A stretch of 64,000 bases of DNA, from positions 434,001 through 498,000 of the forward strand of contig NZ_WHJH01000001.1 in the NCBI RefSeq assembly GCF_011682145.1, in the 5' to 3' direction. The DNA is from Massilia mucilaginosa. GTDB lineage: Bacteria > Pseudomonadota > Gammaproteobacteria > Burkholderiales > Burkholderiaceae_D. Positions 5,680-41,148 of this stretch are shown here, in pieces (position 1 is the stretch's first letter; every line of letters starts with the position of its first letter). Below the pieces are notes generated by a model, which searched no databases, had not been told where the DNA came from, and was given only the letters and a program-made list of their open reading frames with translations. The translations under genes were made by a program, and so were the position numbers.

Positions 5680-7569
5680 TTACGCCGGTGCTGTCGCGTT
5701 CGGTGAAACTCCGCCCGGACCGCTGTCGCCCGGAGGCGGCGTGCGCTTGGTCAGGACGCCCGACTTCGGCTCGCGTGGCTCGTTGCCGGCCATGATGTCG
5801 TTGATCTGGTCGGCGTCGATGGTTTCCCAGTCGAGCAGCGCCTGGGTCATTTTTTCGACCTTGTCGCGGTTCTCTTCCAGCAGGCGGCGCGAGAGCGCGT
5901 ACTGCGTGTCGAGGATCGAACGGATCTCGGCATCGACCTTTTGCTGGGTCGCCTCGGAAATGGTCTTGGTGGCGCCGCCGAAGAAACCTTCGTTTTCGCT
6001 GTCTTCGTAGACCATCACGCCCATGCTGTCGCTCATGCCGAAACGCGTCACCATCGAGCGCGCCAGCTTGGTGGCACGCGAGAAGTCGTTGGACGCACCG
6101 GTCGACATCTGACCGACGAACAGTTCTTCGGCGATACGGCCACCGAACAGGATCGAGATTTCTTCCAGCATCTTGTCCTTGTAGCCGGACAGCACATCGT
6201 GTTCAGGCAGCTGCCAGGTCAGGCCCAGGGCATAACCACGCGGCATGATGGTGACCTTGTGAACCGGGTCGGCCTTCGGCAGCAGCTTGGCGATGACGGC
6301 GTGGCCGGACTCGTGGTACGCGGTGTTGCGGCGCTCTTCTTCACGCATGACCATCGATTTACGCTCGGGACCCATGTAGATCTTGTCTTTCGCGTCTTCG
6401 AAGTCGCTCATTTCCACCAGGCGCTTGCTGCGGCGCGCGGCGAACAGGGCTGCTTCATTGACCAGGTTGGCCAGGTCGGCGCCCGAGAAGCCAGGCGTAC
6501 CGCGTGCCAGGATGTCGGCCTTGACGTCGGCGCCGATAGGCACCTTGCGCATGTGCACATTGAGAATCTGTTCGCGGCCGCGGATGTCCGGCAAGCCCAC
6601 CATGACCTGGCGGTCGAAACGGCCCGGACGCAGCAGCGCCTTGTCGAGTACGTCGGCGCGGTTGGTTGCGGCAACCACGATCACGCCGGAGCTTGCTTCA
6701 AAACCGTCCATCTCGACCAGCAGTTGATTCAGCGTTTGTTCGCGCTCGTCGTTACCGCCGCCCATGCCGGCGCCACGGTGACGGCCGACCGCGTCGATCT
6801 CGTCGATGAAAATGATGCAAGGCGAGTGTTTTTTCGCGTTCTCGAACATGTCGCGCACGCGGCTCGCACCGACGCCGACGAACATTTCAACGAAGTCCGA
6901 ACCGGAAATCGAGAAGAACGGCACTTTGGCTTCGCCGGCAATGGCACGTGCCAGCAGGGTTTTACCCGTGCCCGGAGGGCCGACCATCAGCACGCCGCGC
7001 GGGATACGGCCGCCCAGCTTCTGGAATTTGGTCGGGTCCTTGAGAAAGTCGACGATTTCGTTGACTTCTTCTTTCGCTTCGTCGCAACCGGCGACGTCGG
7101 CGAAGGTGACGGTGTTGTTGGTTTCATCCATCATGCGGGCCTTCGACTTGCCGAAGGAAAACGCGCCGCCCTTGCCGCCGCCCTGCATCTGGCGCATGAA
7201 GAAAATCCAGACGCCGATCAGCAACAGGAACGGGAACCAGGAAATGATCACGGTCTGCAGGAACGAGGTTTCTTCCGGCGGTTTGATGTCGAAACGAATG
7301 CCTGCGTCGCGCAGGTCGCCCACCAGGCCGCGGTCGAGCAAGGTGGCGGTGGAGCGCACCTTGGTATCGTCCGTGCGGGTGGCGGTGATGTTCTGCCCTT
7401 CGATCACCACATCCTTGATGCGCCGGGCCTTGACGTCATCGAGCAGTTCGGAATAAGCGATGGACTTGCTGCCGCCGGCAACGTTGTGGTTGTCGAACTG
7501 CCGGAACAGCATGAACAACAACAGGGCAACGACTACCCAGATAGCGGATTTTGAAAACATATTATTCAC
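5680..7569 (-). CDS. ftsH: ATP-dependent zinc metalloprotease FtsH
   Basis: Membrane-anchored AAA+ protease that degrades misfolded membrane proteins and regulators such as LpxC and sigma-32 in other bacteria. The 629-residue protein has transmembrane segments at about 8-24 and 105-125 flanking a periplasmic domain. The AAA module has Walker A GPPGTGKT (197-204) and Walker [12 protein letters not shown]. The second-region-of-homology arginines lie in RPGRFDRQ, and the protease zinc site is HESGHA. The C-terminal tail is Pro/Gly-rich. rlmE lies upstream on the same strand with a 192-bp gap, the familiar rlmE-ftsH order. Confidence 0.98.
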
Positions 7570-29079: not shown

Positions 29080-29778
29080 ATGAAAACAACCCCCGCGGCG
29101 CCAGACGCGAGCACGCCGGAACCACGCATGTACCGGGTCGTGGCCGACAGCATCGTGCAATTGATCGCCACTGAGCGCATGCAGCCCGGCCAGCGCCTGC
29201 CGGCCGAGCGCGAGCTGTCGGCGCGCTTGGGCGTGAGCCGCGCCTCGCTGCGCGAAGCGCTGATCGCCTTGGAACTGGGCGGCGTGGTCGAGGTGCGCAG
29301 CGGCTCGGGCGTGTACGTCAGCGCGCAGGCGCCCGGCGCCAGCCCGGCCCCCGAAGTCGGCCCCGGTCCGTTCGAGGTGCTGGCCGCGCGCCGCATGATC
29401 GAAACCGAGGTGGCCGGCCTGGCCGCCAGGAATGCCACCGATTCGGCCATCGACGCCATCCTCACCGCCGTGCTGGAAATGGAGCGCGACCACGAAGACC
29501 GCGCCAGCAACGAGCAGGCCGACCGCAATTTCCATCTGGCGCTGGCGCGCGCGACCGGCAACACGGCGCTGGTCGGCGCCATCGACTACCTGTGGAACCA
29601 GCGCGGCACCTTGTGGCACAAACTCAAGGAGCACTTCCAGACCGAGGAACTGCGCAAGCAGACCTTGATCGATCACCGCAATATCCTGGCGGCGATCGCC
29701 GCGCACGACGTGGCCGGCGCGCGCCAGGCCATGCGCGCGCATCTCGAACGCGTGACGCGCACCTTCTCGCGTGCGTAA
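29080..29778 (+). CDS. GntR-family transcriptional regulator, FadR/FCD subfamily
   Basis: A 232-residue regulator. The winged helix at about 18-85 (LPAERELSARLGVSRASLREALIALELGGVVEVRSGSGVYV) is followed by an all-helical FCD effector domain with the metal or ligand residues in RRMIETEVAGLAAR, DRNFHLALARATGN and DHRNILAAIAAHD. FCD regulators usually sense sugar acids or other carboxylates. It lies beside two pectate lyases, and its last codons overlap the start of a pseudopilin gene. Five FadR-like palindromes occur at 32805-32860 and 40837-40869, which suggests that it controls pectin breakdown and secretion. A half-site TTGGTC lies at 29025-29030, 50 bp upstream of the start. Confidence 0.92.
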   Translation: MKTTPAAPDASTPEPRMYRVVADSIVQLIATERMQPGQRLPAERELSARLGVSRASLREALIALELGGVVEVRSGSGVYVSAQAPGASPAPEVGPGPFEVLAARRMIETEVAGLAARNATDSAIDAILTAVLEMERDHEDRASNEQADRNFHLALARATGNTALVGAIDYLWNQRGTLWHKLKEHFQTEELRKQTLIDHRNILAAIAAHDVAGARQAMRAHLERVTRTFSRA

Positions 29779-30286
29779 GCAAGCCATGGCGCCGCGCGCG
29801 GGCGGCTTCACCTACGTCGGGCTGATGGCGATGATCGCCGTGATCGGGGTGGCGACGGCGGCCACCGTCTCGGTGGGCGATCTGGCGCGCCGGCGCGACG
29901 CCGAAACCGAGCTTCTGTTCGTCGGCAAGCAGTACATCCGCGCGTTTCTCGAATACGAACTCAATACGCCGGAAGGCCATGCCAGCCATGCCCCGGCGCG
30001 CCTGGAAGACCTGCTGCGGGACCCGCGCCAGCCGGGCATGAAGCGTTACCTGCGCCAGCTTTATCCCGACCCGATCACCGGCAAGGCCGACTGGCAGCTG
30101 GTGCGCGCGCCGGGCGGCGGCGTGATGGGCGTGCGCAGCGCCTCGTGCGCGCAGACCATCCGGCGCAGCTTCACCGACGGCGATTTCATGTATCTGGATG
30201 GGCAAAAGCGCTACTGCGACTGGCAGTTCGCGTATGTGATGGCGTGCGGGGGCAACTGCAAGGACACCTTGCGCCCCGAGGACTGA
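29771..30286 (+). CDS. Type II secretion pseudopilin-like protein
   Basis: A 171-residue protein with a short basic leader ending AGG, cut before FTYVGLMAMIAVIGVATAATVSVG, a class III prepilin signal in which Phe+1 and a hydrophobic helix follow Gly. It lacks Glu at mature position 5 (Val-Gly instead), unlike major pseudopilins. The globular part has RRRDAETELLFVGKQYIRAF and YPDPITGKADWQLV. The start is GTG 29771, overlapping the regulator stop (GTGCGTAA), or ATG 29786, giving leader MAPRAGG. Coupling to the FadR-type gene and similarity to secretion pseudopilins tie it to the secretion cluster 3 kb away. Confidence 0.82.
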   Translation: MRKQAMAPRAGGFTYVGLMAMIAVIGVATAATVSVGDLARRRDAETELLFVGKQYIRAFLEYELNTPEGHASHAPARLEDLLRDPRQPGMKRYLRQLYPDPITGKADWQLVRAPGGGVMGVRSASCAQTIRRSFTDGDFMYLDGQKRYCDWQFAYVMACGGNCKDTLRPED

Positions 30287-30385: not shown

Positions 30386-31198
30386 TTATTTGAAAACGCA
30401 GGCACGCGCGATGTTGCCGGCGTTGGTGTCCTTGTTAGGCTCATTGCCTTTCGAGGTACCGATAAAGGTGGCGCAGCGCGCCGACGCCTTGTTCGACACG
30501 AAGTCGCTCATGGTCGCCACGTCGTAGGCCTTGGCCAGCGCCGGCAGTTTCGAGCCATCGAAGCTGCTGTTCACGCCCACGCCGGCACTGACGTTATAGA
30601 TCGTCACGCCGCTGATGGTGACGGTGCGTGCCGACTGGCTCGAGCAATTGCCGCACGAGCGATACAGCTTGCCGCCTTCTTCCGCGTAGAAGTTGGTGAT
30701 GACGATTTTGCTGTTTGCGCCGTTATTCTGGAACATTTTGTCGGCCGCTTTGTACGCTGCGCCTCCGCTGACGGTCATGGTGCCGGCGCCTTTGAGGGTG
30801 GCGGCATCTTCGCCCACATCGCCCCAGTACACGTTCTCGATCTTGCAGTTGCCGGCGCAATGCACGCCATCGGCGCCGCCGGCTGCCAGGTTGCGGCCGG
30901 TGCCCTTGGCCGGATCGCCCAGCACCACGTTCTTGAGGGTGGCGCCCACGCCCAGGTTGAAGTGCGGGATCTGGCTCTCGGACTGGCTGCCGTCCATCTT
31001 CTTGTTGTTACCGACCAGGCAAACCATCTTGCCGTATTTGACCAGGCCATCGAAGGTGGTGTTGGCCGGTACATCGGTCGTTGCCGTGACCAGCACCTTG
31101 GTGCACGACGGGACCGCGCGCTTGCCTGGGGCGGCAGATGCGCTGGTGGCGATACACAGTCCGATGACTGCGAAAAGAAGGGCATTGAAGCGTTTCAT
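30386..31198 (-). CDS. Secreted pectate lyase, family PL3
   Basis: A 270-residue enzyme with signal peptide [23 protein letters not shown]. It cleaves polygalacturonate by beta-elimination. PL3 hallmarks are the right-handed parallel beta-helix pattern with [31 protein letters not shown], then [31 protein letters not shown]. Several cysteines (CTK, CLV, CAGNC, CGNC) could form disulfides. AGGAG five bases before ATG 31198 fixes the start. It follows the PL1 lyase by 75 bp and ends at a strong terminator. Confidence 0.93.
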
Positions 31199-31273: not shown

Positions 31274-32329
31274 TTACTGGGCCAGGTTGGTGCGCGCGCC
31301 GGCCGTGGCGATGGCTTTCGCCTTCACGCCGGCAGCCGCGCTGGCGGTATAGGCGTAGCCGGTCGGGCCGTAGGCCTTGCTGGTCTTCCAGTCGGTGGCG
31401 TTGGCGTAGGTGCCGCTGTCCGGGGCGCCCCAGGTAATGCCGCTGCCGACGAAGTTGTTGCGCAGGTCCCAGTAACCGAGCTTGGTGCTGTCGCGCGAGG
31501 TCACCGGATTCCTGACGTTCTCGAAGTAGTTCGATTCGACCAGCGCCATCGCGCCCATGCGCACGTTGATGCCCGAGGTATCGACGTTGCCGAAGTAGTT
31601 GTTGAAGAGGTGGGCTTTACCGTAACGCAGCAGCGGCAGGCGCGACTTCACGTTCTCGAAGCGGTTGTTGTGGTAGGTGGTCAGCGAGCCGGCGTTGAGC
31701 GTGTCCTTGTCGGAAAATCCGTTCAATGCCACCTTCTGGTAGTTGTACACGTAGTTGTACGACACCGTGATGTGGTTGGCGCCCTTCTTCATGTCGATGC
31801 CGCCATCGAACGAGGCGTCACCCGCGCCGGGGCACGATTTGATCGAGGCGAAGATGGTGTTGTGGTCGACCCAGATCTTGCTTGGCTTGCCGCTCGACGT
31901 GCCTTCGATCGAAATCGAATCGGCGTCTTCCCCGCCCTGGAGCAGGCCGATGGTCATGTTCTGCACGATCACGTTGCTCGAGTCGCCCACGATTCGGATG
32001 CCGAAGTTGGCCGACGAATCGGCCGAGCCGCGAATCGTGATGTCGCTCTTGTTCTTGATTTCCAGGGTTTGCGCCGGTTTTTTCCACTGCGCGCACACGT
32101 CCTTGACGCTGGCGAAGTCGAACCTGCCGGTGTAGTTCAGTACCAGGCCGCCGCTGCCCGAATACGCCTTGATCTTCGCCGCCATGTCGGCCAGCGTGCT
32201 CACGTTCACAGCGGCCTTGGTGCCGCCGCCGGTGGTGGCGGCGCCGTAGCCGACCGGTCCGGCCATGGCCTGGGTGCTCGCCAGAACGGCTGCGGCAGCC
32301 AGTGTCAGTTTCAAAATCGATACTTTCAT
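31274..32329 (-). CDS. Secreted pectate lyase, family PL1
   Basis: A 351-residue enzyme starting MKVSILKLTLAAAAVLASTQ with signal cleavage near AMA-GPVGYG. GGAG lies eight bases upstream of ATG 32329, so the 52-residue longer frame is rejected. PL1 features are the calcium-binding parallel beta-helix with IWVDHNTIFAS, FDGGIDMKKGANHITVSYNYV, the RLPLLRYGKAHLFNNYF segment with the catalytic Arg region, and MGAMALVESNYFENVRNPVTS. It is likely exported by Sec and then across the outer membrane by the secretion cluster upstream. Confidence 0.95.
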   Translation of the reverse strand: MKVSILKLTLAAAAVLASTQAMAGPVGYGAATTGGGTKAAVNVSTLADMAAKIKAYSGSGGLVLNYTGRFDFASVKDVCAQWKKPAQTLEIKNKSDITIRGSADSSANFGIRIVGDSSNVIVQNMTIGLLQGGEDADSISIEGTSSGKPSKIWVDHNTIFASIKSCPGAGDASFDGGIDMKKGANHITVSYNYVYNYQKVALNGFSDKDTLNAGSLTTYHNNRFENVKSRLPLLRYGKAHLFNNYFGNVDTSGINVRMGAMALVESNYFENVRNPVTSRDSTKLGYWDLRNNFVGSGITWGAPDSGTYANATDWKTSKAYGPTGYAYTASAAAGVKAKAIATAGARTNLAQ

Positions 32330-32940
32330 GCGGGTTACTCCGTAAATATTGGTATTTTTTCGAGCCGCCAGCTTTTGCGGGGGAAATCCCTCGCTGGCGA
32401 TGTGGACCAAACGGAGCGCCGCACTGTTTGCCGTATTGCATACGCAGAATCCATGGATCATTGCGCTCCGCGAGTCGGCCATCATGCAAATAGATCAACG
32501 TTCGCCAGGTCTGCTGCGAGGATGCACGCTCTCATATTGTCGTGTCAACATCATGTTAAATGACCAAAAGCATTGCTAAGATACCAATTTTCATTCGACA
32601 GGAATGCGACCACGGTGTGCGGTGTGAGATTGGCACAGCCACGATCATTATTTTTCATCTAACGTCTTAGTATATGCATCTAATTCATATCAACGTCGCT
32701 TTGACATCGTTTTCCATGCAATCCGGGCAAGAACGTGGATATTTCAAGACCGATAAGACCTCATGCCAATTAAAAATGTAAAATGCAAGCTCAAAAAACA
32801 ACATTTGGACTGACCGAAGTCTAGTATTGGTCAAGTCAAAAACTAATGTGGTCAGTCCAAAAAAGAATAGATGGCAAAATCGCGTGTATGGATGCCCAAT
32901 TTGGCCGGACCGCGAACGGGGGAGGGATAGCGAAAGTGGA
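32330..32940. other. 611-bp intergenic region between secretion operon and pectate lyases
   Basis: No convincing gene. The stretch 32560-32880 is AT-rich against its surroundings and holds three FadR-like palindromes (32805-32860), listed separately. A half-site GGACCAA lies at 32403-32409. On the minus strand a TTGAGC (32794-32789) could be a -35, but no good -10 follows, so the PL1 promoter is not fixed. The leader could be some 400 nt if transcription starts near the palindromes. Confidence 0.55.
32805..32860. promoter_or_regulatory. Three FadR-type operator-like palindromes upstream of the pectate lyases
   Basis: TTGGACTGACCGA (32805-32817), TTGGTCAAGTCAA (32827-32839) and GTGGTCAGTCCAA (32848-32860) share the pattern T-G-G-W-C-N-G-W-C-C-A. 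They are spaced 22 and 21 bp start to start, two helical turns. The core resembles the E. coli FadR operator half TGGTC-N-GACCA. Their likely reader is the FCD regulator at 29080-29778. Confidence 0.6.
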
Positions 32941-33324
32941 TCAGAGCCGGCTGAAGGGCATGCCGGCGCGCGTGTTGCCGGCGGCACCACTGTAGAGGTT
33001 GTAAACACCAGCACCGTTGTCCGGTGCGACCAGAATCCAGGTAGAAGTACTTTCGGTTATCGGATCAAGCGGCAGGGAGCGCAGGTATTTGCGTTCGACC
33101 AGTTCGCCCAGCGTCTGCGGATAGCGCCCGTTGTCGCCATAGAATTTGTCGATCACACTGCGCGTGATGTGCAGGTTCTCCTTGAGGACCGTCTCCTTCG
33201 ACTGCTCGACACTGCGGAAGAAACGCGGTGCGGCGATCGTCAGCAGCAGCGCCAGGATCGCCAGCACCACCAGCAGTTCGATCAGCGTGAAGCCGCGCTT
33301 ACCAGCGCCGGTACGCAATGCCAT
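32941..33324 (-). CDS. Type II secretion pseudopilin (GspG-like), second copy
   Basis: A 127-residue pseudopilin from [11 protein letters not shown], with processing before [24 protein letters not shown], including Glu5. The C-terminal part has the GspG-like [23 protein letters not shown] and [10 protein letters not shown]. It overlaps the end of the preceding pseudopilin gene by 26 bp. It is the last gene of the secretion operon. Confidence 0.9.
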
Positions 33325-33772
33325 TGAGGCCCACCTGTTCAGAATTGGAGTGCACGTCGTAGACATCCTCGCCCGGTTTCGGGTCGGCCGGGTCGCTCTG
33401 GTAGGAACGCAGCTGCCAGGTCTGCTCGGGCGGCAGGTCCGGATCGGTGTTGAACGGATCGCGCGGGACTGCGCGCAGGAAGAATACCTTGCGCGCCTTG
33501 GCGCTGCGCTGGTCCGGCACGCCGTTCACCAGCGCCAGCAGCTTGGGCGGATAGCCGCTGCCATCGAGCAGGCTGGCGATGCGGCCCTCGCCCGCCGCGC
33601 GCTTGTATTCGTCGAGCGCGCTGCGAATGTCGCGCAGGGCCACGCGCAGCTCCTGCTCCTTCTGGCGCTGCACCGCCACCTGCGCCAGCGGCAAGGCGAT
33701 GGTCGACAGCAGCGCCACGATCGCCAGGGTCACCATCAGCTCGATGAGCGTGAATCCGCGCAGGCGCCGCAC
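33299..33772 (-). CDS. Type II secretion pseudopilin (GspG-like), first copy
   Basis: A 157-residue pseudopilin with leader MRRLRG and mature [22 protein letters not shown], Glu5 present. The body has a long helix ([24 protein letters not shown]) and the C-terminal [24 protein letters not shown] with [12 protein letters not shown], the calcium-loop style of GspG. The start is GTG 33772, one base after the secretin stop (TGACGTG). It is the probable major pseudopilin. Confidence 0.88.
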
Positions 33773-33773
33773 G

Positions 33774-35639
33774 TCAGCCCCCGCTCCGCTCGATCAGCGG
33801 CGCGCTGGCCGGCTGCGGCGCGGGTACCGGCGCCGGCGGTTCCTGTGGCGCGGCATGCTGCGGCTGGCCGGCCTGGCCACGCAGGCTCGCATCGGTCCCC
33901 GCGTCGAACTCCACCTCGCCGCCGGCGCCGCGCGCCTGGTTGCGCAGCACGCGCGGCGTGATCGACAGCACAATCTCGGTCTTGGTGCGCTCGCTACCCT
34001 TGCTGCCGAACAGGCGGTCGAGCATCGGCAGTTCGCCCAGGCCCGGAATGGCGTTCGAGGAACGCTTGTCGTTTTCGCTGATCAGCCCCGCCAGCACCTG
34101 GTTCTCGCCATCGCGCAGGCGCAGCACGGTGCTGGCGTTGCGGGTGCCGATGCGGTAGCCGTACGGCTGGTCGTTGGCGTCGAAGATGGTGCCGAGGATG
34201 CTGCTCACTTCCAGACTGAGTTTGATCGACACTTCATCGTCCATGTACACCACCGGCTCGGCTTCGAGCTTGAGGCCGACATCGAGGTAATTGACCGATT
34301 GCGAGGTCACCCCGGTCGAGGTGACATTGGCCGACACGCTCGGCACCCGCTCGCCGACCCGGATCAGGGCCTTTTCGCGGCTCTTGATGCGGATGCGCGG
34401 ATTGGCCAGCACGCTGACATTATCGCGGTTGACCGACGCCGACAGGCGCATCGGGTCGACGCTGGCCAGCAGGCCCCTGGAATTGAGGTTCTTCAGGTCA
34501 TTGAGCGTAAACGGGCTGGTCGCCAGGGTGCCGTCGTACAGCACGGTGGACGCGCCGAGCGGCGTCAGGCTGACGTTGCCCGGCCACTTCACGCCCAGCG
34601 ATTCGAGGTCGCTGCGCTGCACTTCCAGGATCTCCACTTCCAGCATCACCTCCGGTTCGGCCACGTCGTGCAGCGCCACCAGCTTGGCCGCCATGAGAAT
34701 GGTTTCGGGCGTATCGCGCAGCACCAGCATGTTGAGTTTTTCGTCGACGACGAGGTCGCGCGTCTTGAGCAGGGTGCGCAGGCTGCTGGCCACGGTCTTC
34801 GCTTCGGCGTTGGCGATGCGGAAGCTGCGGATCGTCAGCTTCTGGTAGTCGCGCTGCTTGGCGGCGTCGTTCGGATACAGCAGCACGGTGCGCTCGTCGA
34901 CGATGCGCTGTTCCATCTGCACGCTCATGAGCAGATTGCGCAGCGCCTGTTCGATGGTCGTGTCCTGCAGGTTGAGCGTGACGCGCAGGTCGGCCGGCAC
35001 ATCCTTGTCGAGCGTGAAGCTGATGCCCGAGGTGCGCGACATCGATTCGAGCACGGCGCGCAGCGGCGCGTCCTGGAAGCGCAGGCTCAATCGCTTCTGG
35101 AACGCCTTGCCCAGTGCCGTGCCGCTTGGCGCGTCGGCGCTGTGATCTTCCAGGGCTTGCAGCATTTTCGCCGCGCGCCCGTTCTTGGGGTGCTTCGCCA
35201 GCAGCGCGCGCAAGGTCTCGCGCGCTTCAACGCGCTTGCCGGCGTTGAGCAACTGCTCGACGCCGGCAAGCGCGTGCGACTGCGACTGCGCCGCGGCCAG
35301 GTTGCGCATGCCGATCATGGCCTGGTCGACGGCGCCGAGCGCGGCGGCGCGGCGATACCCCTCCTGCGCCGCATCCCACGCGCCGCGCGCCACGTCCTGC
35401 GCGGCCTGCGCCAGCACCTGGTTGATCAGTGCGATGCGCGTGTTGGCCAGCAGGACGCGCGCTTCGATATGGCCCGGCGTCGCGGCCAGCACTTGCCCCA
35501 GGCGCGCCATGCCCTCTTCCAGCTTGCCCGCGTCGAGCAAGACACGGATGTCGGGCGGGGTGGGCTGCGGTCCGGCAGCGCATGCGGCCAGCACGGCCAG
35601 GCTGCATGCCAGTGCCAGGTTGCCTGCTATTTTTCTCAT
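33774..35639 (-). CDS. Outer-membrane secretin lipoprotein with TPR domain (GspD/PilQ-like)
   Basis: A 621-residue secretin. The signal ends in LAAC with Cys20 lipidated. Residues about 30-170 are TPR-like ([29 protein letters not shown]...), not usual in GspD. A short STN/N1 region ([32 protein letters not shown]) and the C-terminal gate domain follow, with [37 protein letters not shown] and [12 protein letters not shown] Pro/Ala tail ends the protein. It forms the outer-membrane channel. Its ATG overlaps the previous stop (ATGA). Confidence 0.92.
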
Positions 35640-36115
35640 TCTTCTGTCCCGAAACTGATCCGGTGTTCCTCGCCGGTTTGTTGATCCTGAATGCGCACCG
35701 ATTCCTGGCGCAGGGCCAGCACGCGATAACGCTTTTCGAACACGCTGCCGGCGCGCGCCAGCAGCACGGCGTCGTTGCGCAGCAAATAGGCTTCGCGCAC
35801 GCCGTCTTCCACCTTGAACCCGAGCAGCACGAACGGCGTTTGCGGCTTGTCGCCGGCGTCCGGACCGCCGCTCGTTACCGCCGCATCCTGCCGCACCGCT
35901 TGCGCCGGGCCGCCGGCGAACAGGTCGGGCACCGGGGCGTCCGGATCGACCGCCACCGACGGCGCGCGCAGCGGCGCCGCAGGCGCTTGCACCGCTTGCG
36001 GGCGGCGCGGACGTTCGCCCACGCCGACCACCTCCGGTTCCGGCGGACTGTCGAACAGCATCAGCAGGCCGACGCCCAGCAGCACCGCCAGCATGATTTT
36101 CAGACGGGTCGGCAT
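35636..36115 (-). CDS. Inner-membrane PilP/GspC-like subunit
   Basis: A 159-residue bitopic protein: MPTRLKIMLAVLLGVGLLMLF membrane helix, Pro-rich linker (about 25-85), and a small beta domain from TPFVLLGFKVEDGVREAYLLRN to HRISFGTEE, like the HR domain of GspC or the PilP core. It would connect the inner-membrane platform to the secretin encoded next. ATG 36115 overlaps the upstream stop as TGATG. Confidence 0.75.
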   Translation of the reverse strand: MPTRLKIMLAVLLGVGLLMLFDSPPEPEVVGVGERPRRPQAVQAPAAPLRAPSVAVDPDAPVPDLFAGGPAQAVRQDAAVTSGGPDAGDKPQTPFVLLGFKVEDGVREAYLLRNDAVLLARAGSVFEKRYRVLALRQESVRIQDQQTGEEHRISFGTEE

Positions 36116-36636
36116 CAGGGCGCGTCCGGTGTAAACCAGACCGAAAACAGCAGCCGGGCTTCCACGCCGGCGCCGACCGCCGCCCGGTGCATGCCAACTT
36201 CGTCGAGCGACAGGCCGGGGATGGCCTGCGCCGCGCGCAGGAAGCGGCGCACCTGCGGATAAGTGCCGGTGGCCGGCATCTGCACTTGCCAGCGGCCGAC
36301 GCGCCCCGTTTCCTGGCGCCGGTAGTCGGCCTGCGCGATTGTCAGCCCGTGCTCCGCCGCCAGCGCGAACAGGCGCTGCACGGCCGCATCGGCGCGCGCC
36401 GCCGGCGGCAGTGCGCTGCCCGACGCGCTCTGCGACGCGCTCACCGGCATGCCGGCACCCGGTGCTTCGCTCACCTGCATGGCAAGGGCGTCGCGCAAGG
36501 CGGCTTCCTGCGATGGCAACCACCAGCCCCATGCCAGCAGTGCGCACAGCAGCAAGGCCGCGCCGGGCAGCATCCACAAGCCGTGGCGCACGGCCAGCAC
36601 TTCAAGGCGCCAGCGCAGCGCGTTCCATTGCATCAT
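36115..36636 (-). CDS. PilO/GspM-like platform protein
   Basis: A 173-residue bitopic protein with one N-terminal helix (GLWMLPGAALLLCALLAWGWWLP), a coiled linker and a ferredoxin-like periplasmic domain (AEHGLTIAQADYRRQETGRVGRWQVQMPATGTYPQVRRFLRAAQ). The pattern matches PilO/GspM. It overlaps the previous gene by 4 bp. Confidence 0.78.
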   Translation of the reverse strand: MMQWNALRWRLEVLAVRHGLWMLPGAALLLCALLAWGWWLPSQEAALRDALAMQVSEAPGAGMPVSASQSASGSALPPAARADAAVQRLFALAAEHGLTIAQADYRRQETGRVGRWQVQMPATGTYPQVRRFLRAAQAIPGLSLDEVGMHRAAVGAGVEARLLFSVWFTPDAP

Positions 36637-37202
36637 GGCGCGCTCCGGGTGTCGCTGTCGGGCAGGCGGTACGGGGCCGCGAGCTGCGCTTCGTAATGGA
36701 AGTTGATGCCGCCTTCGGCCGCGGCTTCGTGGCGCATCAGGCTCAGACGCGCGAACACAGGGCTGCCTTTCAAGGACCGCAGGTACTCCTGCAGCGCAGC
36801 CACGTCGTCCATGTTGGCCTGGACCTTGACCACCCCGCGCGCCAGATCGGGTTCGAACGATTGCAGGCGCGCCTGCGGCACGCGCTCGAAAGCGCCGAAA
36901 ATCTCTTCCCAGGGCTGCGCGCGCTGCAGCATGGCCTGGCGCAGCAGTTGCGCCTCTTCGGCCAGCGGTTGCGCGCGGCTACGCTCGGCGCGCTCGCGCT
37001 GCTCGCCCGCGGCCGCGCGCGCGGCCTGCGCCGCCCTCGCCTCTTGCAGCTCATGCTGCACGCGCAAGCCGCGCCCGAAAGCCAGGCCGCCCAGCATCAT
37101 GGCGAGCAAGGTGAACGCCACGCCCAGCTGCGTGCCGCGCATGCGCCAGTCCCAGCGCCATACGCTGCGCTGGTCGGCGAAATCGATCATCATCGGCTTC
37201 AT
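36633..37202 (-). CDS. PilN-like platform protein
   Basis: A 189-residue protein from MKPMMIDFADQRSVWRWDWR with one membrane helix (QLGVAFTLLAMMLGGLAFG), a long Ala/Arg coiled coil (about 50-95) and a periplasmic end with FARLSLMRHE. It is PilN-like by order and architecture. The long reading frame up to 37679 is a frame shadow of the upstream gene. The ATG overlaps that gene's stop (ATGA). Confidence 0.75.
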   Translation of the reverse strand: MKPMMIDFADQRSVWRWDWRMRGTQLGVAFTLLAMMLGGLAFGRGLRVQHELQEARAAQAARAAAGEQRERAERSRAQPLAEEAQLLRQAMLQRAQPWEEIFGAFERVPQARLQSFEPDLARGVVKVQANMDDVAALQEYLRSLKGSPVFARLSLMRHEAAAEGGINFHYEAQLAAPYRLPDSDTRSAP

Positions 37203-37855
37203 GCGGCCGTCTCCAGGTGTGTCCAGCCAGCCGGTGCGGCGGGGCCGGACCAGTAGCGCGCCGCCGGCAGGGCCACACCCAGACGCGCCAGTTCCAGCGC
37301 CAGCAAACCGTCGACGTCGGTGCCGGGCTGCTGGCGCACCAGTTGCAGGCGCGCCTGGTGCCAGACCAGCAGGTTGATCACGCCGTTGGCCGCCGCGCAC
37401 CAGACGCCATCGGGCGGCAACGCGGCGCAGTGGCGGTTCCAGTCGTGCAGCAGTGCCGGCAGCAGGCGCGCCAGCGACACGCCGGCCAGCGCCTGGCGCA
37501 GGCTGCGCGGAATCGCGCAAGCGAGCATCGGCGCGCCGGCCTGCCAGTCCGCTTGCAGCAGCCAGTCGGCCGGCGCCTGTCCGTACAGGGTCTCGAAGCG
37601 GGCGTCGAGCAGCAGGCGGCAGTCGCGCAGGCCGCCAATCCCGGCCGGCGGTTCCAGCAAAAAGGTGCGGCTCCAGCAATCGGCCACGCGCACCGACAGG
37701 CGCGCACGCGCCGGCAAGGCCTGCGCCAGTTCGCTGCCCAGCGCGGCCCAGTCGCCGCCCGCCGTCTTGAGCGTGGTGCGCTGCGCGCCGCGCCGCAGCA
37801 CGATGGTGTGGGCGCCGATGTCGACGCCAATGTTTTCAGCCTGCCAGCGTGACAC
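37199..37855 (-). CDS. PilM/GspL-cyto-like actin-fold protein
   Basis: A 218-residue cytoplasmic protein without a membrane helix. It opens with IGVDIGAHTIVLRRG, the phosphate-binding pattern of actin-like PilM or the GspL cytoplasmic domain, but is shorter than PilM (about 350) and poorly conserved. The start is GTG 37855, supported by AGGAGG six bases upstream, inside the end of gspE (20-bp overlap). It would dock the ATPase to the inner-membrane platform. Confidence 0.7.
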   Translation of the reverse strand: MSRWQAENIGVDIGAHTIVLRRGAQRTTLKTAGGDWAALGSELAQALPARARLSVRVADCWSRTFLLEPPAGIGGLRDCRLLLDARFETLYGQAPADWLLQADWQAGAPMLACAIPRSLRQALAGVSLARLLPALLHDWNRHCAALPPDGVWCAAANGVINLLVWHQARLQLVRQQPGTDVDGLLALELARLGVALPAARYWSGPAAPAGWTHLETAA

Positions 37856-39512
37856 GTTTGACCTCCTCCAGCGTGGTTTCTCCGGTGGCCACCAGCGCCA
37901 GCGCATCGTCGAACAGGCTGCGCATGCCGGCGGCCCGGGCCAGCTCCTTGATCTGGCGCAGCGGACGGCGTTCGATCACCAGTTCGGCCAGCGCGTCGTC
38001 GAGAATCAGGATTTCGGCCACGGCGCGCCGCCCCTTGTAGCCGGTGCCGCGGCACTCGCCGCAGCCCACGCCGCGCCGGAAGTTGTAGTGCGAAACGGCG
38101 GCGCGCGCCAGGCCGCTGCGCACCAGTTCCTCGTTGTCCGGCGTGTAGGGGGCACTGCACTGGCGGCACGACAGGCGCACCAGGCGCTGCGCGATCACGC
38201 CGTTCAGGGCCGACACGAACGAGTACGGGTCGATGCCCATGTGGGCAAAGCGCCCGAACACGTCGAACACATTGTTGGCGTGGACGGTGGAGAGCACCAG
38301 GTGGCCGGTGAGCGCCGACTGCACCGCGATTTCACCGGTTTCCTTGTCACGGATCTCGCCGACCATGATGATGTCCGGGTCGTGCCGCAGGATCGAGCGC
38401 AGGCCGCGCGCGAACGACAGGCCTTTCTTGTCGTTCACCGGAATTTGCAGGATGCCGGGCAGCTGGTATTCGACCGGATCTTCGATGGTGATAATTTTTT
38501 CGTGGCCGCTGTTGATTTCGGTGATCGCGCCGTACAGGGTGGTGGTCTTGCCCGAACCGGTCGGCCCGGTCACCAGCACCATGCCGTACGGTTCCGACAC
38601 CAGGCGCCGCATGGTGGCCAGGTGGTCGGACGCGAAGCCGGACGAATCGAGCGTGAGCGTGCCGTGCGCGCTGATCATCGACTGCTTGTCGAGAATGCGG
38701 ATGACGGCGTCTTCGCCGTGCACGCTCGGCATGATCGACACGCGCAGGTCGATTTCGCGACCCTGCGCCTCGACCCGGAAGCTGCCGTCCTGCGGCACGC
38801 GGCGCTCGGCGATATCGAGTTCGGCCAGCACCTTGATGCGCGAGATGGCCTGCTCCGCCAGCGCGCCGCCGGCCACCTGCGCGGCCTGATCGAGCACGCC
38901 GTCGATGCGGTATTTGGTGAGCATGCCGCCGGGCGTGCTTTCGAAGTGGATGTCCGAGACGCCGGATTTGAGTGCGTCGTACAAGGTGGAGTTGACCAGC
39001 TTGACGGCCGGACTGCCGGCGTCGCCCAGCGAGGCGTACGAAAGGCTTTCCATCAGGCGCGCAGAATCGCCCTCGTCCGCCTCGCCGGTAACGAGCGAAT
39101 CGACCGAGCGCACCGATTCCTCCTGCTTGGACAAATAGGCATGCAGGTCGGCCGGCAGCGCCAGGCGCCAGCGCACCGGGGCGCCGGCCAGGGTTTCGAC
39201 CCACACTTGCAGGTCTTGCGCGTAGGGGTCGCACAGCACCGCCCACAAGCCGTCGGGGGCGCGCAGCAGCACGCACTGGCGCTGCTGGGCGCGCGCCAGC
39301 GGCAAGCGCTCGAAGGCCGGGGTGCAGGCCAGCATGGCCGCCATGTCAATGGCGGGCAGGCGGAACACATCGGCCGCCTGCGCCAGCAGCAGGCGCGGTT
39401 CGGACTGGGTCAGCGCTTCGAGTTCGGCAAAAAAGGCGCGCCCCGACTGGCGCGCGTTGCGCTGCGCCGCGCGCAGGGATTCCATCATGGGCGCCATCTC
39501 CATCGGGTTCAT
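37836..39512 (-). CDS. gspE: Type II secretion ATPase GspE
   Basis: Hexameric secretion ATPase of 558 residues. An N-terminal GspE/MshE-type domain covers about 1-130. The core has the SDIHFE motif near 186, Walker A GPTGSGKT at 316-323, the Asp box (ITIEDPVEYQLPGILQ), Walker B (DIIMVGEIRDKETGEIA) and the His box (HLVLSTVHANN). A C-terminal zinc-binding pair of CxxC motifs (CRQC...CGEC) follows. The start MNPMEMAPMM at 39512 overlaps the gspF stop by ATGA; longer frames read through gspF. Confidence 0.95.
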   Translation of the reverse strand: MNPMEMAPMMESLRAAQRNARQSGRAFFAELEALTQSEPRLLLAQAADVFRLPAIDMAAMLACTPAFERLPLARAQQRQCVLLRAPDGLWAVLCDPYAQDLQVWVETLAGAPVRWRLALPADLHAYLSKQEESVRSVDSLVTGEADEGDSARLMESLSYASLGDAGSPAVKLVNSTLYDALKSGVSDIHFESTPGGMLTKYRIDGVLDQAAQVAGGALAEQAISRIKVLAELDIAERRVPQDGSFRVEAQGREIDLRVSIMPSVHGEDAVIRILDKQSMISAHGTLTLDSSGFASDHLATMRRLVSEPYGMVLVTGPTGSGKTTTLYGAITEINSGHEKIITIEDPVEYQLPGILQIPVNDKKGLSFARGLRSILRHDPDIIMVGEIRDKETGEIAVQSALTGHLVLSTVHANNVFDVFGRFAHMGIDPYSFVSALNGVIAQRLVRLSCRQCSAPYTPDNEELVRSGLARAAVSHYNFRRGVGCGECRGTGYKGRRAVAEILILDDALAELVIERRPLRQIKELARAAGMRSLFDDALALVATGETTLEEVKRVTLAG

Positions 39513-40720
39513 TGCAGGGTCCCGGCAAGGTCGAAGATCGGCATGTACAGCAGCACCACGATGGCGCCGATGACGACGCCGATGGCCGCCATCAGCACCG
39601 GCTCGAAGGTTTTGCTGAATTTTTCGATCCACAGCGTGGTTTCGGCGTCGTAGAACAGCGCGGCGCGGGTGAGCATCAGCCCAAGCTGGCCGGAGCGCTC
39701 GCCCACGCGCAGCATGCGCAGCGCGATCGGCGTGGTCAAGCCGTTCCGTTCGAGCGACTCGGAAAAGCTGCCGCCCTGCGCGATGGCGTGGCGCGCCGCC
39801 GCCAATGCGCCGCGCCGCGCCGGCGAAATGGCGCCGCTGACCATGTCGAGCGCCGACACCACGGCGATGCCGCCTTCGAGCAGCATGCCGAGGGTGAGGT
39901 ACAGGCGCGCCAGTTCCAGGATGTGCATGCGTTCGCGCACGCCCGGCAGACGCGTAAACAGCTGCATCAGCTGGCCCGAGCGGTGCATGCGGCGCAGCCA
40001 GAAGAACAGCGCCGTACCGATGGCGGCGAGCGTGAGCATGATCGCCATGCCATGGCCGGCGACCGCGCCGCCCCATTTGATCAGCCATTGCGACAGCATC
40101 GGCAGTTCGCGTCCGCTGCCCTGGTAGACAGCCGAGAATTTGGGCACCACGTACCCGAGCAGGAACATGCTGACCGCGCTGCCGACCGTGAGCAGGATCA
40201 CCGGGTAGATGGACGCGCTGACCAGGCGATTGCGCACGCCATCGACGCGCACCTGGTATTCGATGTAGCGCGTGAGCGCCTGCGGCAGGTCGCTGGTGCG
40301 CTCGGCGGCCTTGACGATGCCGCCGAACAGGGGCGGAAACGATTCCGGCTCAGCCGCAATCGCCACCGAAAAGCGCAAGCCGTCGCGCATGCGCGCCAGC
40401 AGGCGGGCCAGCAGCGCGCCGGTGTCGGTGTGGGATTCTTTTTCGCTGAGCGCCTCCAGGCTTTCGACCAGGCCAAGGCCCGCTTCGAGCAGGGCCAGCA
40501 GCTCCTGGGTGAACAGCACGAGGGAAAAGGTTTTGCCGCGGCGCTGGGCGGTTACCGCGACCGGCCGCACCTCCAGCACGGTCAGGCGGCGTTCGACAGC
40601 GGCGCGCGATGCGGCGGTGGCATCGCTGGCGTCCAGTTCCAGCATCTGGACCCGATTGTCGGGCCCCACAGCACGAATCGCGAAGCGCACGGGCGGATCA
40701 GCGGGCGACGCCGGCGACAA
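39509..40720 (-). CDS. gspF: Type II secretion inner-membrane platform protein GspF
   Basis: A 403-residue protein with two homologous cytoplasmic helical domains, each followed by hydrophobic helices (about 170-190, 222-242 and 375-395). Signatures are FTQELLALLEAGLGLVESLEAL in the first domain and LARLYLTLGMLLEGGIAVVSAL with MLRVGERSGQL in the second. It works with GspE to assemble the pseudopilus. It is the first gene of the nine-gene operon, about 80 bp downstream of a predicted promoter. Confidence 0.95.
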   Translation of the reverse strand: MSPASPADPPVRFAIRAVGPDNRVQMLELDASDATAASRAAVERRLTVLEVRPVAVTAQRRGKTFSLVLFTQELLALLEAGLGLVESLEALSEKESHTDTGALLARLLARMRDGLRFSVAIAAEPESFPPLFGGIVKAAERTSDLPQALTRYIEYQVRVDGVRNRLVSASIYPVILLTVGSAVSMFLLGYVVPKFSAVYQGSGRELPMLSQWLIKWGGAVAGHGMAIMLTLAAIGTALFFWLRRMHRSGQLMQLFTRLPGVRERMHILELARLYLTLGMLLEGGIAVVSALDMVSGAISPARRGALAAARHAIAQGGSFSESLERNGLTTPIALRMLRVGERSGQLGLMLTRAALFYDAETTLWIEKFSKTFEPVLMAAIGVVIGAIVVLLYMPIFDLAGTLQ

Positions 40721-40803
40721 GGCCGCGCAACTGCCGGCGTGGAAATGGATTCATGCTGCCCCTGCTTTCATAAACATCCTGGTCGAACGCATCGTGGTTT
40801 GCC

Positions 40804-40869
40804 ACTATAGAAAAGTGCACGCCCACCTCAACATCATCGGTCCGACCACTTAAGCATCGGCCTGACCAA
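40804..40869 (-). promoter_or_regulatory. Secretion operon promoter with two FadR-type operator-like palindromes
   Basis: On the minus strand TTGAGG (40831-40826) and TATAGT (40809-40804) are spaced by 16 bp, with transcription starting about 77 bp before gspF. Two 13-bp palindromes lie just upstream: TCGGTCCGACCAC (40837-40849), five bases from the -35, and TCGGCCTGACCAA (40857-40869). They are 20 bp apart start to start. Position upstream of the -35 would suit an activator, although repression by looping is possible. Confidence 0.65.
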
Positions 40870-41148
40870 TTCGCATTCTACTACTGTTGATGTCATTTGG
40901 ATATGTGACTTTAAAGACACGGCTTTCACAACTATTCATTGCAAAAAAGTTCATGACGGCGGCGTATTCCCAAGTCATTTCTTATTTGCATAACTCGGCG
41001 GAATGATTTCGGCAATGTCGCGCTTGCCTGCCGTGACAAGCCTGCGGCGATGTCCGCGCGAGGATGCGACCTTGAAGCGCCAGTTTCGTGCCCCGCGCAC
41101 GCCTGAGCCAGCGCAACGGACAGCCACTGCCGCTCGCTACAATGCGCC
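40870..41148. other. Gene-free stretch between the secretion promoter and the Rpn gene
   Basis: About 280 bp, AT-rich up to 40990 and GC-rich after. No gene or clear site seen apart from what may be the Rpn promoter. Confidence 0.5.

Follow-up and report, generated by a model that had tools for sequence, protein, structure and literature searches.

In a 64,000-nucleotide stretch of the Massilia mucilaginosa genome, two pectate lyase genes and a type II secretion-like operon are preceded by clusters of a 15-bp palindrome, TTTGGYCWGRCCAAA. This whole stretch, referred to here as the window, is positions 434001-498000 of contig C111 in the 7.7 Mb source genome (G000). With good confidence, both clusters are interpreted from sequence comparisons as operators of a pectin/galacturonate regulon under a small family of GntR/FCD repressors (FCD1, FCD2, and FCD3, which are UxuR/ExuR-like), in which the secretion operon is included and from which a ligand would release the repressors. 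The regulon itself is very probably real. Its palindromes occur mostly in pairs 19-22 bp apart across the promoters and, because the same sites precede all of them, one regulator family probably switches the lyases, the secretion machine, and the uptake and catabolic genes together. A joint regulon of pectinases and their exporter had been proposed in a preliminary description of the window, and this proposal gains support from a motif found de novo beside FCD genes, from a genome scan with a profile model (R1), and from co-occurrence with FCD genes.

The window locus was compared with those of six relatives of the same genus (seven genomes in all), within a genus set of 17 genomes; close relatives include Massilia aquatica, M. 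rubra, M. atriviolacea, and M. frigida. The order of the gene cluster is preserved in all six relatives, with FCD1 missing from one (G002). Whole genomes were screened by patterns and by one profile model, and matrix scans were limited to selected stretches.

Operator sites in the window

Five operators, to which no strand is assigned, have the highest scores in the window, both with a matrix built from 22 distinct sites outside it (the outside matrix) and with a matrix derived de novo. Operator A (32804-32818, TTTGGACTGACCGAA) is closest to the pectate lyase genes, approximately 475 bp upstream of PL1, and scores 17.3 with the outside matrix and 14.0 with the de novo matrix. Operator B (32826-32840) is weak, with mainly the half-site ATTGGTC kept (15.3 and 13.1), and operator C (32847-32861, TGTGGTCAGTCCAAA) scores 18.2 and 16.3. 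Upstream of the secretion operon are operator D (40836-40850, ATCGGTCCGACCACT; 13.0 and 13.2) and operator E (40856-40870, ATCGGCCTGACCAAT), which is the best in the window by either matrix (20.1 and 17.3). The next best window sites reach 9.3 with the outside matrix and 9.6 with the de novo matrix. In the two intergenic regions, five sites score at least 13, whereas 1000 dinucleotide shuffles gave 0.025 such sites on average and never more than one. Neighbouring operators are 22, 21, and 20 bp apart, which agrees with the spacings of 20-22 bp reported earlier.

The places of the five palindromes in two clusters, as first described, are therefore real, since the same five rank top by two matrices, although the pattern given for them needs revision. 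As typed, TNGGWCNGWCCA (12 letters) is exact at three sites only (32806 and 32849 on the minus strand, 40837 on the plus strand); the site at 40857 matches with one mismatch, and B (32827), mostly a half-site, fails even with one mismatch. At up to one mismatch, TNGGWCNGWCCA is found 13 times in the window against 9.3 expected, a number reached in 16 of 100 shuffles. A form fitted after seeing the sites, TYGGNCNGACCR, has five matches in the window against 0.71 expected, and none of 100 shuffles reaches this number. These matches are A, C, D, E, and 32901-32912, part of a fourth site on the PL1 side (32900-32914) that had previously been overlooked. Degenerate in the window (TTTGGCCGGACCGCG) and absent there from the top matches of both matrices, this site is clear in the relatives, being TTTGGCCTGACC in five and TTCGGCCTGACC in one, with scores of 16.0-22.9, and its position is kept in all seven genomes.

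Comparisons also show that the motif is retained at A, C, and the fourth site across the seven genomes, with the exceptions of a deviating site C in G006 (TTTGGCTAGTCCAAA) and the degenerate fourth site of the window. The columns invariant in all seven are 10 of 15 in A, 5 of 15 in B, where mainly one side is conserved, 10 of 15 in C, 11 of 15 in D, where the centre and right half drift, and 13 of 15 in E. On the PL1 side 35 of 60 columns within sites are invariant, against 188 of 446 outside them, and on the gspF side 24 of 30, against 161 of 300. This excess is moderate because parts of both leaders are also conserved.

Other conserved elements were observed in these leaders. In six of the seven Massilia genomes TGTTGTTTTTT (window 32793-32803) adjoins the operator nearest PL1 on its gene side, replaced by CGTTGTTTTTT in G003; the matching place in Undibacterium and M. 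horti has TTGTTGTTTTTT, which in Undibacterium also stands before the third pseudopilin gene. The PL1 leader of approximately 470 bp (32330-32800) contains several blocks conserved in the seven genomes, including TACCAATT and, in most, GTGNGATTGNCAC. Rfam searches gave no match at E≤1 on this leader and two tRNAs only on the whole window. In the leader of the secretion operon an inverted repeat, GTGGTTTGCCAC (40794-40805), is complete in six of the seven genomes; its first base differs in G009.

Motif tests and regulon members

The outside matrix, which includes no window site, finds pairs at seven of 10 FCD loci outside the genus set, these loci having been located through protein similarity. 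It finds no pair in a background of 1,614,706 bases, in which 74 loci (L171-L244) are related secretion operons and 11 single sites reach a score of 14. Because a window-derived matrix had served to select the outside sites, a de novo run was added, using the 400-bp flanks of FCD genes at the 10 loci (five genomes outside the genus set). Six 9-mers tied at six of the 10 loci, including GGTCAGACC, GGACTAGCC, and CCATTCTAA, and all are parts of operators or of the -10 element. The matrix from the palindromic GGTCAGACC places E, C, A, D, and B at the top of the window (17.3 to 13.1) and gives three pairs there, against one pair in the same 1.61 Mb background. That one pair (L082:5779/5797; region 5779-5811, contig C77 of G000) consists of a strong site, AGTGGCCAGACCAAT, and, 18 bp from it, a weak one, and its flanking genes have no evident link to pectin. 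A symmetrized 16-mer matrix was mis-centred and was dropped in favour of the 15-mer matrix.

R1, a profile of the promoter cassette with no window sequence included, was run on the 17 genus genomes. In G000 the whole-genome scan, which the preliminary description had proposed, returned 11 rows at E≤10 that resolve into seven places, all of them pectin/galacturonate promoters: three on contig C144, C111:340455, C188:21252, and the two window clusters (gspF, E=0.014; PL1, E=0.6). An R1 match at E≤1e-6 and an FCD gene of at least 66 % identity are found in the same 11 of the 17 genomes and in none of the other six; for one of the 17 (G011) a 40 % FCD homologue is also listed. When the four genus genomes used for R1 are left out, the co-occurrence is seven of seven against none of six (Fisher p=0.0006, relatedness not corrected for).

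Scanning with the window-family matrix around the FCD paralogues, themselves located through protein similarity, identified pairs before a TonB receptor gene, a GH88 hydrolase gene with a DUF4861 gene, a second TonB receptor gene, and FCD3, part of a cluster preceded by operators (FCD3, TonB receptor, GH28, pectate lyase). Genes identified at the target loci comprise TonB receptors, GH88, DUF4861, GH43, pectinesterase, GH28, and PL1-pectinesterase; the last, downstream of FCD3, is a large protein combining PL1 pectate lyase and pectinesterase domains (L071:31-3312; C111:346931-350212). A palindrome search in the seven genomes led to a galactarate dehydratase operon (galactarate dehydratase model 920.7 bits, cut-off 730.85), the second gene of which is probably a uronate dehydrogenase. 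Its site pair is present at one locus in each of the seven genomes, the genes having been read in G000 and G002 and the other five loci matched by site order and spacing. No paired sites were found in the stretches flanking this locus on both sides. The cassette here (L135:2756-2792, contig C188) fits R1 better when pointing away from galactarate dehydratase (E 0.0013 against 0.032), and it may serve a divergent gene too. At L269, L271, and L267, an FCD gene and a galactarate dehydratase-like gene are transcribed away from each other, and the region between them has two sites, two sites, and one site, respectively. UxaC, of the isomerase route, had no match in the three genomes searched for it, which fits an oxidative galacturonate route.

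The locus extends to Undibacterium hunanense and M. horti, in which the secretion operon, PL1, and PL3 are kept, most genes at 66-81 % identity and gspL and gspM at 47-58 %. Ahead of the operon, Undibacterium has two strong intergenic sites, and a further site falls within a small pseudopilin-like ORF that precedes gspF; two or three more are upstream of PL1, and another is upstream of the third pseudopilin gene. In M. horti a single strong site precedes PL1. In Pseudoduganella namucuonensis (L269) a PL1 relative has three sites, and the same locus contains FCD, GH28-like, galactarate dehydratase-like, and uronate dehydrogenase-like genes, named by eye from their N-termini. Among 29 related secretion operons (L171-L199), a single site of at least 14 is present somewhere in the locus in five, and a pair in none. 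The cassette is present upstream of GH88-like genes in four genus members without a lyase-linked secretion operon (G005, G007, G011, and G015), and in two of these, G005 and G011, it precedes FCD genes as well, as judged by eye. Because these four still have the cassette, comparison suggests that the secretion operon is a later addition to an older pectin regulon.

A number of observations weigh against this regulon. The members of R1, like the 22 outside sites, were chosen through the window-family matrix, so the results with both are partly circular, unlike those of the de novo run; R1 scored 150 of 1365 first-look candidates in G000, and the window clusters are weak matches to it in which the full cassette is missing. 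Three of the 10 outside FCD loci have no pairs. The first de novo seed returned by the script, GACTAGCCA, was off-centre and did not recover the window sites, GGTCAGACC being chosen among the tied 9-mers. Of the six genomes that lack FCD, two are incomplete (48 and 81 %). For three of the genome's five PL1-family genes no paired site was found in the 18-19 kb examined, and upstream of FCD1 there is no site by eye and none scoring at least 12 in the window scan. M. horti has only weak sites (9.7 and 10.3) before gspF. The uronate dehydrogenase label is presumed from operon position and the pathway, the matches naming only the epimerase/dehydrogenase family. Near-perfect palindromes are not enriched in G000, with seven rows at four places (three regulon promoters and one inside an ORF resembling, by eye, an acyltransferase) against six reversed-control rows. 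The 11-mer TGGWCNGWCCA is found at 22 places genome-wide, fewer than its reversed control (44), and strong single sites are present away from pectin genes: L082:5797 (19.1) and L151:3068, inside an ORF (16.7), in G000, and L143 (23.9) and L144 (18.6) in G004.

These last two observations would be expected if the sites were chance palindromes or belonged to an unrelated regulator, as would the fact that GT-N3-AC palindromes are common to many FadR-subfamily proteins, according to the accessible part of the source (PMC4494728). Such an explanation is nevertheless very improbable given the de novo motif beside FCD genes, the genome-wide model, and the co-occurrence with FCD. The genome scan asked for in the preliminary description upholds the proposal, the R1 places all being regulon members, although the loose 11-mer is by itself not enriched and a few strong single sites do occur elsewhere. 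The lack of enrichment of the 11-mer required better motif tests, and both it and the literal pattern were rejected as genome screens, being at or below chance. A further variant with another spacing did not help. Patterns for site pairs returned mostly GC-rich matches in the seven genomes (21 in G000 against 27 in the reversed control); in four genomes there were 13 to 16 rows against six to 11 in the control.

Operator placement and the FCD regulators

Seventeen promoters from Massilia and other Oxalobacteraceae, variants included, align as TTGGCTAGTCC, a -35 element TTGCAT, a 17-bp spacer with TTTGGTCTGACCA, a -10 element TAGAAT, and TGGCCTGACCAAA. At the GH88, second TonB receptor, and FCD3 promoters, the operators fill the spacer between -35 and -10 and the stretch right after the -10, with the presumed start site. 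The candidate promoter of the secretion operon (40875-40903, minus strand) has a weak -35, TATCCA, a 17-bp spacer, and a -10, TAGAAT, with E and D coming after it. Its -35 is invariant in the seven genomes, its -10 is TAGAAT in five and TAAAAT in two, and in Undibacterium (L169) TAGAAT is also directly upstream of the first operator.

In the preliminary description the pair instead abuts the -35 of a good promoter, which lies downstream of D and would suit a different reading of the same regulon, with FCD proteins as activators of the secretion and lyase promoters at sites upstream of a -35. E. coli FadR activates fabA and fabB in this manner, D ends near this promoter (TTGAGG/TATAGT) in the window, and at PL1 a long distance separates the operators from the gene, with no conserved -10 inside them. 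That promoter does not hold up in the comparison: its -35 and -10 both vary among the seven genomes, the -10 being TATAGT, TTTAGT, CCGAGT, TACAGT, CTAAGG, ATGGAG, and TTGGAG. Because the promoter downstream of D is not conserved and the -10 upstream of E is, the gspF operators look like repressor operators. With the operators of three promoters lying within the core promoter, and a conserved -10 upstream of E and D at gspF, operator placement favours repression over an activator beside a -35 as the best reading. An activating role at gspF and PL1 is a less likely alternative. Under repression, FCD dimers would bind side by side on the operators when pectin is absent, blocking the promoters, that of the secretion operon included. 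An acid derived from galacturonate would free the repressors, and lyases, exporter, receptors, and catabolic enzymes would then be made together.

FCD1 (29080-29778, plus strand) is beside the pectate lyases and overlaps, by eight bases, a third pseudopilin-like gene (29771-30286, plus strand), as had been described; this second label is by eye. With PF00392 at 68.8 bits and PF07729 at 90.4 bits, both over gathering thresholds, FCD1 belongs to the FadR (FCD) subfamily of GntR, and FCD2 and FCD3 do likewise. Its initial description as a FadR/FCD-type regulator is thus right in family, but it falls on the hexuronate side and is not FadR proper: the best NCBIfam models are UxuR (146.2 bits, equivalog cut-off 442) and ExuR (130.2, cut-off 396), both below cut-off, and on the FadR model TIGR02812 it reaches 35.6 of 249.2 bits. 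A PDB sequence search with FCD1 gave GntR-family regulators, including NanR and PdhR, as best matches; these were not used further. FadR-subfamily sites are palindromes of the form GT-N3-AC with TKGT/ACMA boxes, as set out in the portion of the study available (PMC4494728). The consensus TTTGGTCAGACCAAA follows this rule, both boxes being present and GT and AC being 3 nt apart, and the FCD proteins are predicted to bind it.

FCD1 has two paralogues in G000, G002, and G016, FCD2 (78-79 % identity) and FCD3 (67-69 %), and SRASLREAL in the recognition region is identical in all three. Regulation of the window clusters by the adjoining FCD1 alone, with the paralogues acting elsewhere, would fit its place in the cluster and its distribution, since at 91 % identity or above it is found in six of the seven genus genomes that have the lyase-linked secretion operon and in none of the 10 others. 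In G002, however, FCD1 is a 44-codon in-frame remnant (L039:2143-2277), still overlapping the pseudopilin-like start as if translation coupling had been retained while the regulator was lost, and the operators are kept. Sites also persist in Undibacterium and M. horti, in which no FCD gene was found within the 21.8 kb of locus examined. Together with paralogues that are 67-79 % identical and share the recognition region, this leaves exclusive control by FCD1 quite improbable, and FCD2 and FCD3 appear equally good candidates for the regulator of the window sites.

The secretion operon and comparison with known systems

The secretion operon is on the minus strand and begins with a GspF-like inner-membrane protein gene (39509-40720; TIGR02120 227.6 bits, cut-off 424), followed by a GspE-like ATPase (37836-39479, start codon uncertain; Pfam T2SSE 395.4 bits, TIGR02533 498.3 bits, cut-off 630.25). 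GspL-, GspN-, and GspM-like inner-membrane genes come next (36115-37906). The GspM-like gene (36115-36636) matches T2SSM_b (23.4 bits, cut-off 21.7), whilst the labels GspL (37199-37906, without a Pfam family) and GspN (about 36633-37205) are based on gene order and size. A secretin (33774-35666; Pfam Secretin, Secretin_N, and STN) and two GspG-like pseudopilins (33299-33772 and 32941-33366; N_methyl, with GspG the best NCBIfam model, below cut-off) complete this strand's secretion genes. Pectate lyases PL1 (31274-32329; Pectate_lyase_4, 7e-48, start and signal peptide by eye) and PL3 (30386-31198; Pectate_lyase, 1e-47) are also on the minus strand. The third pseudopilin-like gene, which has no Pfam or NCBIfam match, has an orthologue in all six Massilia relatives, in Undibacterium (L169), and in M. 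horti (L170). Elsewhere in the genus, locus L041 (G007, contig C251) has two GspF-type genes facing each other, which share 55 % and 50 % identity with the GspF of the window and flank a single secretin gene.

On the Pfam and NCBIfam evidence of a secretin, a T2SSE ATPase, a GspF-like protein, and prepilin-like proteins, the operon belongs to the type II secretion/type IV filament superfamily. It is not a canonical type II secretion system (T2SS), GspE, GspF, and GspD (142.1 bits, cut-off 351.35) all scoring below equivalog cut-offs. These low scores, together with a secretin that scores about equally as PilQ (147) and GspD, and the fact that related operons lacking the two lyases are common in Betaproteobacteria, would suit a machine that makes a pilus or filament instead of exporting lyases, the co-regulation being real all the same. 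Against this, the operon adjoins PL1 and PL3 in nine genomes of at least two genera and shares their operators, so that a filament role is doubtful, and export of the lyases is the reading adopted here. Lyase export, the identity of the inducer, and operator binding by the FCD proteins are all predictions from sequence. A more elaborate arrangement is put forward tentatively: a pectinase-dedicated secretion machine, run within a sugar-acid catabolic regulon by three FCD repressors on the same operators, with FCD1 captured into the secretion cluster. Should FCD1-3 respond to different ligands, such as oligouronide products, galacturonate, and galactarate, a single set of sites would let the export decision combine several signals from pectin.

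A literature search, with many subscription papers outside its reach, found no description of an FCD-run pectin/secretion regulon and no paper joining pectate lyase, type II secretion, and Massilia. The operator core of E. coli FadR, TGGTC-N-GACCA, is like that found here, and FadR is of the same GntR subfamily; the targets here, in contrast, are sugar-acid genes, and FCD1 is far below the FadR cut-off. UxuR and ExuR of Gammaproteobacteria are GntR-family regulators that respond to hexuronates (PMC9369180, accessible part), and ExuR sites are also GT-N3-AC, in the text available (PMC4494728). FCD1-3 resemble them in best NCBIfam models and in site form, but reach about a third of the equivalog cut-offs, and control of lyases or a secretion operon is not described for UxuR/ExuR in those portions. 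In the part available, the GntR-family protein GguR of Halomonas regulates galactarate/glucarate operons, Udh, and hexuronate genes (PMC5507952). GntR-family control of galactarate and uronate genes would be common to both systems, GguR and FCD1-3 being compared by description only, whereas lyases, TonB receptors, and secretion genes are not described in the GguR regulon in that part of the source.

The regulon proposed here would give a T2SS-like operon of Oxalobacteraceae, about which little has been described, a specific function in the use of pectin. It would also name the regulator family behind pectin use in Massilia, Undibacterium, and Pseudoduganella and make its operator code readable. 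The closest parallel in function involves KdgR, an IclR-family protein. In Dickeya dadantii, KdgR represses pectinase, catabolic, and out (T2SS) genes and is released by 2-keto-3-deoxygluconate, according to the available parts of two sources (PMC9007343; PMC8688573). As in that regulon, pectinases, catabolism, and secretion genes here share the operators of one regulator family, whose occupancy of them is predicted. Unlike in that regulon, the regulators are GntR/FCD proteins, the palindromes are clustered, the galacturonate route is probably oxidative, and the secretion operon is non-canonical. The coupling of pectinases to their exporter, known from KdgR of soft-rot bacteria, is therefore probably also found under another regulator family and with another type of secretion operon.

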